Assembly (NCBI GenBank): GCA_033816765.1
Contig: CM066287.1
Coordinates: 3,782,001 to 3,846,000, forward strand
Length of the DNA: 64,000 nt
Direction: 5' to 3'
Source: Nothopassalora personata
Taxonomy: Eukaryota > Ascomycota > Dothideomycetes > Mycosphaerellales > Mycosphaerellaceae
Shown here: positions 38,781 through 46,591 of the stretch, one piece after another
How the letters are laid out: the number at the start of each line of letters is the position of its first letter
How positions within the stretch are numbered: position 1 is the stretch's first letter
The notes under the pieces: model-generated
The model's input: the letters and a program-made list of their open reading frames with translations, nothing else
The model's database searches: none
What the model was told of the DNA's origin: nothing
Translations under genes and position numbers: made by a program

Positions 38781-40610
38781 TCAGCCATGGCTGATAACGA
38801 CTCTCGCACCCTCCTTGCCAAGCACACCTCGTTCTTTCTCCTTCGCCTTTGGACTTCGGTCTCTTCCCCTCTTCCGACTGAGGAACCCAAGCATACCAGA
38901 CGGCTTCTCCTGTCTACGCTGCTCCTCGTTCGGCTGCACGAGCCCCTGACTTTGGTTGGCCATGTCACTCCAGCTGCCGTACTCGTTGAGCACGACTTGC
39001 ACGCCGCCTCCTTGTGATGTATTCGTCTGCGGGCCGCGAGGCCGCTGGCTTCTCAATGACGACACAGGCGAAGGAATCGGCGGTTGGTCCTCGTACCGCA
39101 CAGTCTTTATCCGGTGTAGCTCTCTCGAGTCTGGCGGTATTATTTGCTGCAGCGCTTGTGCTACGCTTGGGTCTGACGACGGCGGTGGGAAGTACTCTCT
39201 GGGCTCTGATGTTGGACCCGAGGAATAGTCCAGTGCAACTGAATGTAGAGGAGGCGATCCATCTGGTGAGTTTGTGGAAGATCGAGTTGTCCCTGACGCA
39301 CTACCTGGAGTTTGTGATCGTGGCGTTGGTATGGAACTGGGCTTTCTTGATTGAGCGCGTGGAGTGGCGGTGGGACCAATAACATATTGTCTTTCATCGC
39401 CTCGTGATGGAGTGTGGTCGCTGGATCCTGGAGGAGCTCCTGCTTGTGACACCACAGGGCTGCGGGCTTGGGGCACAGCAGTATAGTTGAAAGGCTCAAA
39501 CATGGTCTCGATCATCCGGTGGAGCTCGTCGGCTCGAATTTCCTGCTGTGTTGCGTCCTCTCGCAACTCTGCTCTCGGCTTCTGCTTCCTCGCCCTGGCC
39601 TCGAGAGGCGCTTCCTCCAACAGCAGCTCCTCGAGATCGTAAGTGGCATCGAAGTTCGTCTTCTCGCTCGATGGGCAAAACACTGGTTCGTACTCTTTCC
39701 GCTGAAGTGCGTCAAAGTCAATGTCTCTGAAGAACGGGTTGTCAGTAAAAGTTTCGAAGCTAACTGCTCCAATTCGTAAGCCCCTATTCTTCTCCAGCAG
39801 AGAACTAATGGCATGTAGGCATGGCATGGACACAGGCGGCGATGTGACTGGAAACGGAGGATCAGCTTTGATGATGGCCTGTGCAAGCTGGTCTTGGTGG
39901 TTAGCCTCGAAAGGCCGTTTGTTGTAGATGCATTCGTAGAACAAGACACCCAATGACCACCAGTCGACTTCGGAGTAGTAGCCTTTGCCACTGTAGACTT
40001 CGGGAGCGAGATACGCCAGTGTGCCAGACTTGCTTGTCAATGGCTTCCCGGGTGTGATATCGGAGGCGACGTTGAAATCGGCCAGATGGACATGACCCTC
40101 TGTGTCCAAGAGCACATTATCTGGCTTGACATCGCGATGGACAATGCCTTGCGTGTGGACATATCGTAGAGCACAGCCAAGCTCTGCAATCCAGAATCTG
40201 ACGGCCTCTTCGGTGAACGTTTTCCTCGAGATATGGAAACGTAGGTCGCCACCGGTCATTAGATCGACCACGATATATCTGCCGGCGCATTAGTAGTCAT
40301 GCTAGGTTGCGCCGCTGAAAGCAGGTACTCACAAGTACTCCATGTCCTGGAAGCTGTAGCGCAGATTACACAAGAACGGGTGATTCAGGTGCTCCAGCAT
40401 CCTGCGTTCGCGTATGATGTTCCGCACGCTCTCCGACCGTACCACCTCATCTTTCCTGATGTATTTCAGCGCAAACGTCAAGCCCGTGTCCTTTCGCTCC
40501 ACTATTCTGACTTTGCCAAAGGCACCCTTGCCGACAACGCGCAGCAGGCGGAAGTGATTGAGGTTCACCTCGTCGGTGAGGATGACGGGCTTGCCATGGG
40601 AGTTGCCCAT
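38781..40610 (-). CDS. AGC-type serine/threonine kinase, YANK (STK32) family
   Basis: Exons 40333..40610 and 38781..40278, with a 54-nt intron, encode 591 aa. It begins MGNSHGK, a likely N-myristoylation signal. The kinase domain has GKGAFGKV (27-34), the ATP-binding Lys49 in FALKYI, HRDVKPDN (140-147), ADFNVAS (DFN, 160-162, where most kinases have DFG), GTLAYLAPEV and WWSLGVLFYE. DFN also occurs in animal STK32/YANK kinases, so it supports the family rather than inactivity. A ~250-residue Ser/Pro-rich tail follows. Probably membrane-associated; substrates unknown. Confidence 0.88.
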
Positions 40611-42619
40611 TTGCGGCGGCGCAGCGGAGCGTCAGAGACGGGCAGGTCTCGTGAGGACCTGAAGGGTGGTGGTAGTTCGATTCCAGGTGCACGCAGACTA
40701 CCGCAGCGTCATTGTCCTCCGTCGGCGAAAGGCCTGGCGGTGGCCGTCGATGGCCCGGTGATTGTCGGTGCTGCGTTGGACGCCCGCTGAAGCTCAAGGT
40801 GTATCCTGGACGCCACGCACGAGGTGATGAAGCGGGGTGGGGGTGCACGACAGGAGGGAGGTACGGGGACAAGAAACGTCCCAGGTGAGTGGGCGCCAGA
40901 GCAAGGTTGGAGCTGTGGGTGGCCGCTGTGCAATGATGGAGACCTATGAGACGATGCTTGGCGATCGCTGGGTCAGCACACACAGCAGGCCGATAGCAGC
41001 AGCAGCAGCAGCAGTAGTAGCAGCAGTAGCAGCAGTAGTAATAGTAGCAGCCAAAGGTGCCTGACAGGAGCAGCTGTATCGGAGTGGTCTCGCCGAATGG
41101 AGATTGATGAAATGCGACTGGGTAGAGCAGTTATTGGTGCAGGGTGTAGATGCTGTCAAAGTGAACGCTGCGCAACCCTGGCTGACTCAAGGAGCTGGCC
41201 CGCCCGCGGACACTTGACAATCAGCGTCACGCACGTTACAGCAGCGTGGTCGATAGCACACCTCACGTTTTCATCGGCCCCAAGCTAGCGGCGAAGATGG
41301 ATTCGGCTCGCGCTAGGGCCGTCTGCAACATCCCGATCCGCACTCTTCACTCTTGTTGCCTGAGGAGTATCTCCGCAACGACAAAGCAGAGCCAGCCTTA
41401 CTTACCGCATGGCATGCATGTGCTTCTCCTGGACCCGGCAGGAAAGTACCGGCGCAGTCGACAATGGCCCTCCCCAGCTACGGATTTGGCTTCTGCGCTA
41501 AAAGCAAAGTGCCATACATACAAGACACCAGCGTATGGAGCAGCTTCCTGTCTCTCATGACCATGTGCCTTGCCCTATGGCGGCGTTCTGCCACGTGGCG
41601 AACTAGAAAAAGAATAACCTTGTGAAACCATCAGGAGCGGCTTAAGGCGGCACACTGGCGCACACCAGCGGCGAGGCACCTTCTCTAGCCCTTCTAGAAC
41701 TGTGTCTGTCTTGGTCGCAAACGCTCGTGAAACCTAGCTCGAAACTTAGACCAACACGGCCAACTTCCAATAAAGGAATTTGCGTGAATTATGTTGATCT
41801 TCAGGTTACATTTCAGCACCACGTCTATGTTTGGAGCCTGCGTTTTAATGACTGGCAGTTTTAAGGACTGACAATGAATGGCCCAGAACGCGCAGGGCGG
41901 TACTGTATTAGGACGGAATGAACTCCGCTGCAGATTCTGGCACATCCTGCCATCATCGCCTCTGAAATGGTTCCCTGCGGGATTTACTAGTCGATGTGCA
42001 GAGGTATTGCCGAGCAGGAGATCTGCATATGTACTATTTTAGTCATCACCCAAAATTTGACTAGCCCTCTAGCACTCCAAAATGCGCTTGCCCGCATCTG
42101 TCTTTCCTGTAGCCGCAGCAAACTTGGGAGGGGCCCACGGTAGGAGGGGGCCCCCCAAAGGGAAGGAGCATCTCGTAGGAGGACTCAAGTGGGGTATTCC
42201 ATTTAATAGCAATTGATTGCTTAGTCAGAACGTGAGCTGCCCTTACACGAAAACAGGAGCCTGCCCATAGACTTTATGCAGACAGACGCTTCTTAGCACC
42301 TCAGACTGTCTTGTTTGGTCGCCTGAACGCCTTTCGACGTAGGGAAAACTGCAAAACCGAGCTCGGTCTTCAAGTCTGTGTCAAAGTGTGGTATTGTGAT
42401 GGGTAAGGAGAAGAAAACACACTTCATCAAACAGTCTGCGCCATGCTCGGCAGTTCACCTACGCTTGAAGCTTCCCAAAACTCCCCATCATCCTTCCTAT
42501 AGTTGAACGCCCGTCGTAGGTTCGGCCAAAAGTAACTTCCGAGACCTCTCAAAAACCCCATCGTGACCCAAGTCCCACAAGCCAAACGCCGGTAATGTGA
42601 TTTGATGGCATGGTCGCAC
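40611..42619. other. 2.0 kb intergenic region without a supported gene
   Basis: Lies upstream of the YANK kinase and downstream of UBC8. It contains an AGC/AGT microsatellite (separate entry) and, at about 42133..42172, a G/C-rich segment with gggggcccccc. Frames (for example 41694..41945 minus) do not match known proteins; I could not confirm a transposon relic. Confidence 0.4.
40995..41051. repeat. (AGC/AGT)n microsatellite
   Basis: Interrupted trinucleotide repeat of AGC and AGT units, about 390 bases upstream of the kinase start. Confidence 0.85.
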
Positions 42620-43474
42620 TCACACCTCATCCATAGTACCAGCTGGTTCGTCATCTTCATCGTCTTCATCGTAGCTGCCTACGCTGCTCATCTCATCGCT
42701 ATCGTTGGAGTCGCCGCCGGCCTCGTCGACGCTTTCTTTCGAAGCATACTTCGAGACATACTCTGGATGGTGTCAGCAGAGCTGGAAAGGGTTGCAGCAT
42801 GTCAAGATACCTACCTTTGACTTTGACCTCATAGCCTTTGGGCTCCCTCATCATGAGAGCTGCCGCTTCGCCGTTGAGTGGATCGGTTGGGTTAGGATAC
42901 CGCAAGAGTTGGGGAAGGAAAACCTCAAATATGTTGATCATGTCGTACATCGGCGACCAGGTCTGGTTGATGACATCAAGGCATACACTGCCCGAGAGCT
43001 CATCGATGTTTGGGTGAAAGATCCTGTTTACAAAGCCAATGCTCGGGCTTTTGTAAGGGTACTGGTCCGGAAGCTCTACGTGGATCTTCCAAAGACCACC
43101 TTCGAATGGTGCTGCGGAGCATGTCAGACTTCGTGACACTCTAGGTGTGTGTGAGACTTACTCTCTGTCGGTCCCTTGAAACGAACATAGAATTCTTGCC
43201 TACGTCAGGTCAGCAAGGCAACTAGTCGATGTTACGAATGATGGCACGGATCTGACGGACACTGTCAAGACAGGTCAGTCAGCATGCTGTTAGAATAGCG
43301 ACTGAGTGGACGGCAATGGAAGTGACTTACTGTTGTCGTTGACCAGTGTAACCTCATAATCGCTCATGAGCATCTTCATGACCTGCAACATATCCGTCAG
43401 TGCAAGCTTCCCACTGGTGTGGTGATCTTCTCCTCACATACATCTGTCTCGATTCTACGCTTTGGACTGCTCAT
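42620..43474 (-). CDS. UBC8: ubiquitin-conjugating enzyme E2, Ubc8/UBE2H type, with a micro-exon
   Basis: The exon model, 5' to 3', is 43442..43474, 43331..43382, a single base at 43261, 43162..43199, 42815..43111 and 42620..42762; it gives 187 aa. The product reads [11 protein letters not shown], then [15 protein letters not shown]29, [31 protein letters not shown] and [19 protein letters not shown] (active-site Cys85), ending in a long acidic tail as in Ubc8. Exon 2 ends in phase 1 and the QEFYVRF exon needs phase 2, so one extra base modulo 3 is required. A T flanked by an acceptor (gacag) and donor (gtccgt) supplies it and restores the conserved Met. Ubc8 works with the GID E3 ligase in glucose-induced turnover of gluconeogenic enzymes. 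Confidence 0.88.
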
Positions 43475-44088: not shown

Positions 44089-45414
44089 TTAAGCCACGAC
44101 CTTGCCGGCCTCGTCTCTACTACCTTCGTCCTTGTCATTGTCGTCGCTCTCCTCTTCCTCATCTCCCCGCTTCTGCATCGACACTGCAAGCATACCGCCC
44201 TCCTTGATCCACGGCATCACTCTGCTTTCATCATGCAAGCCCAATACTCGCCATCCGGTAATGAGTCGTCTTGCCCTCCTACTCGTCCAACCATACTCCC
44301 TCTCCAGCCACTGTTGAGATGCGTGCTCTGAACGGATCCGCTGGTCGGGCTTCTTCTCGCTTCTTTGAATCTCAACGAAGAAGGAAGCCTGTGTTCGTTA
44401 GGGAGATCTCGAAACGTCCGAGCATCAGGCAAAACTTACAAAGAAATTCCTCTTGATCAGCAAGTACGCACTCGCTTTCAACTCGGTCTGGAAAGCAAGC
44501 TCTCTCTCCGCTGGATGTAGCAGCTCGATATATCTATCGTCGCTGGCTGTGATCCCAACACCAACCTTCGTCCTCTGCTCAAGATCAACTTTGTCCAGGG
44601 TGCTCGGATACTCTCTCCACAGCCATGGATCGCTTGCGAGTCGGGCCAGTGCAGTGTCCGGATCCTTGATCTCAGGTGCGTAGTCCGTCAGAGACTCTGC
44701 ATTGATGAAGTCCGGGTGCTCGGGTACCTCAAGAGCACGCTCAAATGTCTCCCTCAGGTATACGAACAAGCGACAATGGCGATCTGGTCGGTCCTCGCCA
44801 CCCTCGTCTGTGACTCGGTGCTTGCTTTCAGTGTAGGCGACAACGGCTTTCTTGAAGGAGATGGAACGTTGTCCAATGTCGTTGAATGTTTCTTCGAGAA
44901 TATGTAAGAGAGGCGTGAAAGGTAAGACGGAGTAGAAGAAACGGATGTACTTATCCTGCGGCATGAGGAGGGCCAAGATGCTGACTGGCGTGTTGCCATC
45001 TTTGGTCGGGATGTACGCTGCATGATCGAGGAGTACAAGAGTGCCTTGGGCACACGGATCTGCCATCAGGTGGAGTTTCTGCTTTTCCATGCGCAGAAGT
45101 GATGTCTCAATGTTGCCTCCAAGGTTAGTCTCGAGCCAAGACTTGATCGTGACACATGTTCCGGCAGGACTCGAGCAGTCGTAGAGGACCAAGGGAAATT
45201 GATGGCGCTCGGGGCGGATGAACTCGATGTTGGGCGTTTCGGTGGCGCGGATTGAGTTGAGGTCAATCGCTTCAGAAGAACTGCCTGCCAATGGACGCGT
45301 CGCCTTGGCTGCCCTTAGCTCCTGAATCCAGTCCGGCGATTCTGATCTGGTCGCACCTGGTGCATCAGTCGCGCGAGTCGACTTCGCTCGGGGCTTGCGA
45401 ATCATGGACGCCAT
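44089..45414 (-). CDS. SWIRM-like domain protein, function unknown
   Basis: Exons 44440..45414 and 44089..44388, with a 51-nt intron (donor gtaagt, acceptor acacag), encode 424 aa. The N-terminal two thirds match no family I recognise. From about residue 295 a SWIRM-type winged-helix pattern appears: LLHPAERELAFQTELKASAY, LLIKRNFFASF, then SQQWLEREYGWTSRRARRLITGW. The tail is acidic. SWIRM domains occur in chromatin proteins that bind DNA or histones; a nuclear role is inferred only. The intron sits inside this domain, and the unspliced frame stops four codons after it. Confidence 0.7.
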
Positions 45415-45688
45415 GTGGTGGTATGTACTAGGTTGAAAAATTATGGCTACCGCGTCTTTGTGTTAGTGTGAGACAAATGGAGGTACTCGCGCATTATGTG
45501 AGCTTTCATTCATCTCATTGACTTCGTGACCAATTCTTCAGATCACTCGAATCATCGGGAGCTTCACTTTCGCGTGAGCTTCCCGACAGTAGCCGCACTT
45601 TCACATGCTTACTGTGCACACACCCCCGCGGCGGGCGCCTGCTGTATTGTACAATGTCTACCTTGTTGCGCCTCCTTCAATGCCATGC

Positions 45689-46591
45689 TCAAGGACCTGT
45701 TCGCACGGTCTGCTCGCTCAGACCAGCCTCGGGCTCCTCCTCGTCACTCGCCTTTGCCAAACCGTGCTCCTTCAGTAGTGTATCGATTTCTTCGGCAGTC
45801 CAGAGGTGGTGGTAGATGGTGCCATTCTTTGTCTTGCCTACTGTAGCAAACTCGATCTTCTCGCTCGATAGCTTTGTGCTGTCCATAGTCTTGGACAGAA
45901 CCTTGACTGCCAACTCGCAGGCCTGCTTGAGGTTGCAGTCCTCATTGTAGTCTTGCTTGAGTAATGACTGGGCGCTGGCGTTGTTGGCACCGACACTGGT
46001 CGCCTTCCAGCCGGTGTAGTTGCCTGACGGATTCGACTGGTAGAGCTGGAACTGTCGCTGGTTGTCCCAGCCGGCGTAGATGAAAGAGACACCGAAAGGT
46101 CGTAGGCCACCGTGCTGTGTGTAGCCTTGTTTGTGATCGCACAGCCGCCGCACAAGCTGCTCGCAAGGGATGTCGGCGTTGTATGTGAGGAGGTATCGCT
46201 GGGCGGCATCTCGGGCATAGTTGATGAGGATGTTGGCATCGGCGGTCATGCCTGCAACGGCGCAGATCATGTTGCTATGTTGAGATTAGCACTATTCCTC
46301 CTACACATCTCGCACCTGATACCACATACTCGTTCAGGATGTACAGCTTCTCTGCGCTTGTGTCTTGCTCGAGGAGCTTGCTGGTGACCTTGCGCTCGGC
46401 GGCGAGGACGATGCCGTCGTTCGCGAGGATGCCCAGTGCAGTGCCGGCGTGTGAAATTGCCTCCAGCGCGTACTCGACCTGGTAGAGTCTGCCTTCTGGC
46501 GAGAAGATGGTCGTGCGACTGAGGATGTGTCAGTGATGTGGTGATAGTAATGTTTCGGTGCTGAGCTGTACCTGTCGTAGCGTCTCGACAT
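45689..46591 (-). CDS. PRE9: 20S proteasome subunit alpha-3 (Pre9/PSMA4)
   Basis: Exons 46572..46591, 46330..46518 and 45689..46274, with introns of 53 and 55 nt, encode 264 aa. The alpha-subunit signature [20 protein letters not shown] spans exons 1-2. Then come [42 protein letters not shown] and [11 protein letters not shown]. These match the alpha-3 subunit, which lies in the outer ring and whose N-terminus helps gate the core. The first exon encodes only six full codons. It is divergent from the WW/FF gene, 268 bases between starts, suggesting a shared promoter. Confidence 0.95.

Follow-up and report, generated by a model that had tools for sequence, protein, structure and literature searches.

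We found that exon 3 of UBC8 in Nothopassalora personata very probably consists of one nucleotide, a T, lying between two introns. What points to this splicing is the layout of the sequence, together with the finding that just one solution fits and with the way in which the relatives' gene models go wrong. The gene is encoded by the minus strand of the window (the whole stretch of 64,000 nucleotides that was analysed, contig positions 3782001-3846000), where it spans 43474 to 42620. Its spliced coding sequence of 564 nt would encode 187 amino acids from six coding exons, separated by five introns (59, 69, 61, 50 and 52 nt). The predicted features are as follows:

Exon 1, 43442..43474, minus strand: begins with the ATG at 43474.
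Intron 1, 43383..43441, minus strand: 59 nt, GTATGT..TTGCAG, branch site CTGAC 15 nt before its end.
Exon 2, 43331..43382, minus strand: ends in ..AAC GAC AAC A, phase 1.
Intron 2, 43262..43330, minus strand: 69 nt, GTAAGT..TTGACAG, branch sites CTGAC 18 and 14 nt before its end.
Exon 3, 43261..43261, minus strand: predicted to be a lone T, the second base of codon 29 (Met).
Intron 3, 43200..43260, minus strand: 61 nt, GTCCGT..GACGTAG, branch site CTGAC 11 nt before its end.
Exon 4, 43162..43199, minus strand: starts with G CAA GAA TTC (QEF).
Intron 4, 43112..43161, minus strand: 50 nt.
Exon 5, 42815..43111, minus strand: bulk of the E2 domain, including the catalytic cysteine C85.
Intron 5, 42763..42814, minus strand: 52 nt.
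Exon 6, 42620..42762, minus strand: acidic tail and stop codon.

The product matched the Pfam family UQ_con over residues 12-142 (2.5e-39), yeast Ubc8 over residues 1-179 (6.5e-76) and UBE2H (2.8e-68). Full-length similarity, the UBC fold and the catalytic cysteine (C85), which mark members of the Ubc8/UBE2H type, were all found in it, and judged from this product the gene is UBC8, encoding a ubiquitin-conjugating enzyme of that type. The GID/CTLH ligase uses Ubc8 as its E2. The best named protein match came from Dothistroma septosporum, a member of the Mycosphaerellales; the 187-residue product differs from that gene model solely at residue 29 (M here, R there). When the genome (a 54.5-Mb assembly of 40 contigs) was searched with UBC8, one place was 100% identical and the next places listed were at 29-48% identity, and no intact second copy was found in this search. 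Among the neighbouring minus-strand frames, 45689-46285 matched a proteasome subunit family (6.1e-44) and 40329-40631 a protein kinase domain (4.8e-12), while a 345-residue open frame upstream of UBC8 (44425-45462, minus strand) had no Pfam match.

Exon 2 ends in ..GTC AAC GAC AAC A, the following coding block begins with G CAA GAA TTC, and 131 nt lie between them. The sequence-only reading had stated that joining the two directly shifts the frame, and we could confirm this clash: once all 131 nt are removed (i.e. with the T skipped), the frame shifts and a stop codon is reached after 24 residues. We enumerated the splice structures that keep the frame into FKGPTE, with donors limited to GT or GC, acceptors to AG, and intron length to a minimum of 40 nt. 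There were 38 of these (six with one intron and 32 with two), and a single one gave the family peptide NDN-M-QEF, with introns of 69 and 61 nt around the T at 43261. The coordinates first proposed for these introns and for the T held, and so did the claim that the Met and the exact family length are restored, this being the sole enumerated solution that does so. Met-29 is invariant in 22 aligned relatives and is also present in yeast Ubc8. Both marks of a nuclear single-nucleotide exon were found here: AG immediately precedes the base, GT immediately follows it, and each side carries intron signals (CAG-T-GTCCGT), and the flanking exons are one base out of phase, with the base completing a conserved codon (A + T + G = Met-29). 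Junction reads containing AACGACAACATGCAAGAATTC would fit the one-base exon, and reads containing AACAGCAAG, AACAAATTC or AACAGTAAGCAAG would contradict it.

We evaluated how readily such a layout arises by chance. AGTGT is the only AG-N-GT in the 131-nt gap, and with at least 42 nt on either side it arose in 15% of 20,000 dinucleotide shuffles; the bare motif is not rare and is little proof alone. When, for both introns, YAG, a GTNNGT donor and a CTRAY branch site were demanded in addition to AGTGT, 0 of 20,000 such shuffles passed. The donor of intron 2 (GTAAGT) is strong, with a log-odds score of 3.58. That of intron 3 (GTCCGT) is weak (0.77 as CAT/GTCCGT, -0.15 as AGT/GTCCGT) and scores near the bottom of the donor range of 24 surveyed introns (-0.3 to 5.4); a 60-nt candidate intron at another E2 locus (L021) uses it as well. 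These 24 candidates (48-95 nt, one intron being entered twice via overlapping loci) came from a stricter survey with branch sites, a 100-nt limit and a length term. Without that limit and the length term, the survey yielded 53 candidates, the longest of 257 nt. Many of these are doubtful, and one is a 219-nt span across the UBC8 gap itself; intron length is therefore weak evidence against a 131-nt intron. A hexamer-based, donor-blind survey was dropped (96 candidates with a flat donor composition, mostly false introns). Both introns flanking the T are of ordinary fungal size, each with its own donor, branch site and acceptor, and the introns of UBC8 outside the gap measure 59, 50 and 52 nt.

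We also examined the same junction in relatives, using three protein searches (the best 120 clusters of more than 5,000 hits each) that gave 219 distinct proteins. Exclusion of two plant models (P0001, P0066) and the plant-labelled P0150 left 216. They include 112 Pezizomycotina models with 104 species labels from 76 genera; the subphylum of each model was assigned by genus, largely on what we take to be its placement (four were looked up). Within these best 120 clusters per search, residues 28-30 were abnormal in 92 of the 112 Pezizomycotina genome models and plain in 20, a ratio that is no population rate, as clusters at 90% identity keep odd models separate and merge correct ones. The same residues were plain in 42/42 models of other fungi from the same clusters. 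They were also plain (with M) in 62/62 proteins from read or metagenome assemblies (sources lgn, jgi, ena and merc), and for 53 of these the nearest named neighbour was a Pezizomycotina model. By Fisher tests the excess of abnormal Pezizomycotina models gave 6e-30 against the 62 read-assembly proteins, 8e-23 against the 42 other fungi, and 7e-27 against the 53 with a Pezizomycotina neighbour. At least one model abnormal at Met-29 was seen in 64 genera. We infer that the read-assembly proteins represent transcripts: each is a continuous full-length frame, and most of the contigs measure 0.9-2 kb.

On alignment to the N. personata protein, insertions at residues 27, 28, 29 and 30 numbered 3, 55, 13 and 3, and deletions of residues 29 and 30 numbered 12 each. 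The later intron positions, which served as a control, had 1 insertion (residue 42) and 3 insertions (residue 140). Three read-assembly proteins could be paired with models that are identical to them from FYVRF on: P0181 with Ilyonectria destructans (154/154 residues; NDN-M vs the model's NDN-TPFLPTDTSSTSNRSSR), P0084 with Morchella importuna (153/153; NDN-M vs NDN-SKLPTTPPQPRELCPPLP) and P0019 with Penicillium chrysogenum (154/154; NDN-M vs NDN-K). For Hortaea werneckii there were three conflicting models (MYVIL, TRTV and RISAKRRLISYR). The junction was plain in 4/4 lichen-group models (Psora, Bacidia, Peltula, Watsoniomyces) and in 3/3 Cladosporium models, which may reflect intron loss or better annotation. 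Viral contigs searched with P0002 and with the protein alignment yielded no relative's DNA; genome contigs searched for UBC8 orthologues gave three distant prokaryotic matches (27-35% identity), none orthologous, and PF00179 had no match in 14 control genomes. The comparison stands at the protein level, where the pattern is strong and the models fail at Met-29 in ways compatible with two introns.

The abnormal peptides could be decoded. S-initial peptides made up 44 of the 92 (S = A/GT): in 19 the S was followed by a codon with G as its last base (SK, SM, ST, SE, SQ), 14 were other forms and 11 had a terminal R. S followed by xxG is expected if the donor is moved by four bases where GTAAGT, GTATGT, GTACGT, GTGAGT or GTCAGT stands directly after A. 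R stood before QE or SE in 32/92 (34 with two M-x-V models), where R = AG/G, an acceptor abutting G CAA; this R-ending group comprised 11 S-initial peptides, 15 others and six with R alone. Seven of the 92 started with M-S-V, M-Y-V or M-F-V, i.e. ATG TNN GTN = A + T/GTNNGT, and on this decoding they contain the one-base exon and continue into the donor behind it. K, from an AAG acceptor, was carried by 12/92; seven models fitted no class and one more was unparsable. Read in this way, the errors place a donor directly behind A and an acceptor directly ahead of G, and they reveal T/GTNNGT. The entire gap is translated in five Fusarium models, which represent three species. These are compatible with AG-T-GTNNG dividing it into an intron, the T and a second intron (47+52 or 49+56 nt; residue shuffles 1-9%). 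The other long read-through, in Claviceps africana, is incompatible with AG-T-GTNNG, as are 8/9 of the shorter R-ending read-throughs, Fusarium torreyae being the compatible one (downstream intron 53 nt). We also observed that the models with R alone instead of M (AGG; P0002, P0012, P0049, P0085, P0094, P0120) have a form that no canonical splice pair gives in N. personata, and that fits a transcript's extra base forced onto the intron-edge G.

Two of these wrong solutions, NDN-K-F and NDN-SK-QEF, are also possible in the N. personata sequence, and each would need a single intron only. The sequence-only reading had named the AAG acceptor at 43195 as such an alternative. A 136-nt intron from GTAAGT (43330) to this AAG has a canonical donor, keeps the frame and corresponds to what is annotated in 12/112 Pezizomycotina models; however, it gives NDN-K-FYVRF without M-Q-E rather than the family peptide. 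It thereby loses Q30 and E31, the latter invariant in the 22 relatives, and it passes over a TAG five bases upstream. The read-assembly counterpart of the P. chrysogenum K model, 100% identical downstream, has MQE. We consider this intron very unlikely, and cDNA with ATGCAAGAATTC would be incompatible with it. A donor four bases further on (GTCACT at 43326) would also keep the frame with one intron, giving NDN-SK-QEF, one residue longer, and its equivalent is found in 19/112 models. This donor is weak (-0.63) and bypasses the strong GTAAGT, and it replaces the invariant Met with residues seen in 0/62 read-assembly proteins, which makes it extremely improbable.

A base missing from the assembly or the allele, leaving one ordinary 131-nt intron, would also explain the phase clash if the T had been lost exactly at either exon edge. 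We regard it as even less likely than the AAG acceptor, though ahead of the shifted donor: the relatives' models in 64 genera fail at Met-29 with the same frame clash, and the 131 nt contain two full sets of splice signals. The least probable of these readings, with hardly any weight, is that of two introns around a 4-nt exon ATCC (43248..43251). It has GT-AG sites and, as claimed earlier, keeps the frame, inserts one residue and loses the Met (NDN-NP-QEF); its donor GTGCCA scores -4.57 and its second intron would be 48 nt. The one-base exon is the reading that we retain, and its interpretation gained support from the relatives, whose models fail at the same residue in a manner fitting the two-intron layout. 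Other explanations were rejected outright. A stwintron, in which one intron splits a splice motif of another and the entire unit is excised, is incompatible with the need to retain a base. A single intron with non-canonical ends was discarded, since neither TGCAAG nor AACAT occurs anywhere in the gap and ATG is therefore impossible from one intron. Ribosomal frameshifting was set aside as the read-assembly proteins of relatives (other species than N. personata) are in frame with M.

The same one-base exon is apparently shared widely by filamentous ascomycetes beyond N. personata. From the models, the phase clash at Met-29 would be common to Dothideomycetes, Eurotiomycetes, Leotiomycetes, Sordariomycetes and Pezizomycetes (the last with Tuber, Terfezia, Trichophaea and Morchella), where the class of each genus, except Dothistroma and Morchella, is as we presume it to be. 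The exon is probably old, and no assembly slip, because the model errors of relatives match its layout. The simplest reading would place its origin before the Pezizomycetes split from the other classes. A second hotspot was observed at residues 12-16 of UBC8, where one residue is missing from 34/112 Pezizomycotina models (usually with VMKL in place of VMKML) and 26/112 have other lengths, the region being regular in 55/55 parsable read-assembly proteins (7 unparsable). These errors fit AA/GAT/G CTC, in which GAT would be a 3-nt exon with an intron on either side that annotation has left out without loss of frame; in N. personata the bases for these residues are contiguous (43382..43363).

We propose that introns 2 and 3 would be subject to intron definition and spliced out in succession, because a 3' and a 5' splice site separated by a single base could hardly be occupied together. 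Sequential, intron-defined splicing has been argued for APC11 (PMC4674806). In either order of removal the T would stay between A and G, completing the ATG of Met-29. The scores point weakly to removal of the upstream intron 2 first, as the donor of intron 3 would be slightly better afterwards (0.77 vs -0.15). A speculative reading, which we hold to be unlikely, is that the T exon is a switch setting the Ubc8 level, kept since the Pezizomycotina ancestor together with the 3-nt GAT exon about 40 coding bases upstream in many lineages; the efficiency of T inclusion would then set the level, because skipping leads to the frameshift and early stop.

The sequence-only reading had cited APC11 of Arabidopsis as precedent. 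This is indeed reported, but the list was incomplete, as VPS55 (plants) and CYP621A (Fusarium) have also been described. The 1-nt microexon of plant APC11 (Guo & Liu 2015, PMC4674806) and those of APC11 and VPS55, conserved in land plants (Yu & Li 2022, PMC8831610), resemble that of UBC8 in being one-base exons absent from reference annotations; they differ in lying in plants and in unrelated genes, with RT-PCR and RNA-seq as proof. APC11, like UBC8, belongs to the ubiquitin pathway, which may be coincidence. Closer is the single-nucleotide exon of CYP621A of Fusarium (Nelson & Syed 2026, PMC12940212). This too is a nuclear fungal gene with unjoinable phase-1 and phase-2 exons, one base in the middle of a conserved codon, AG/GT flanks and a gap of about 130-140 nt. 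There, however, the base is G (AGGGT), the genes are Fusarium P450s and 18 RNA reads give the proof, whereas in UBC8 the base is T (AGTGT), the gene is a housekeeping E2, apparently in several classes, and the exon is predicted from the genomic sequence. Fungal stwintrons, some of them old in Pezizomycotina, likewise place two U2 introns in one position with consecutive removal, but have no exonic base between them, unlike UBC8, which needs the T in its mRNA (PMC5639578). One-base exons between adjacent introns, as in UBC8, are also described for the rnl gene of Ophiostoma (PMC12308204) and placozoan cox1 (PMC5436844), but both are mitochondrial, and the former lies between group II introns and is not spliceosomal. 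An earlier survey listed 1-bp exons in annotations, without confirmation (PMC3064661). In the literature searched, outside which most subscription journals lie, we found no paper on a micro-exon of UBC8, and none on such a one-base exon under other names or among fungal micro-exons.

Together, these results have led us to conclude that UBC8, on the reading given here, is a new and widespread case to be added to the known nuclear one-base exons (APC11, VPS55, CYP621A). A housekeeping gene would thus join the few nuclear genes with such an exon. Most of the Pezizomycotina models listed carry a wrong sequence inside the E2 domain at Met-29, with up to 36 residues inserted. If the inference from relatives is true, the one-base exon would extend well past the Fusarium case, to several filamentous ascomycete classes. 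A laboratory fungus that grows fast and carries such an exon would allow a direct test of how adjoining 3' and 5' splice sites are handled.
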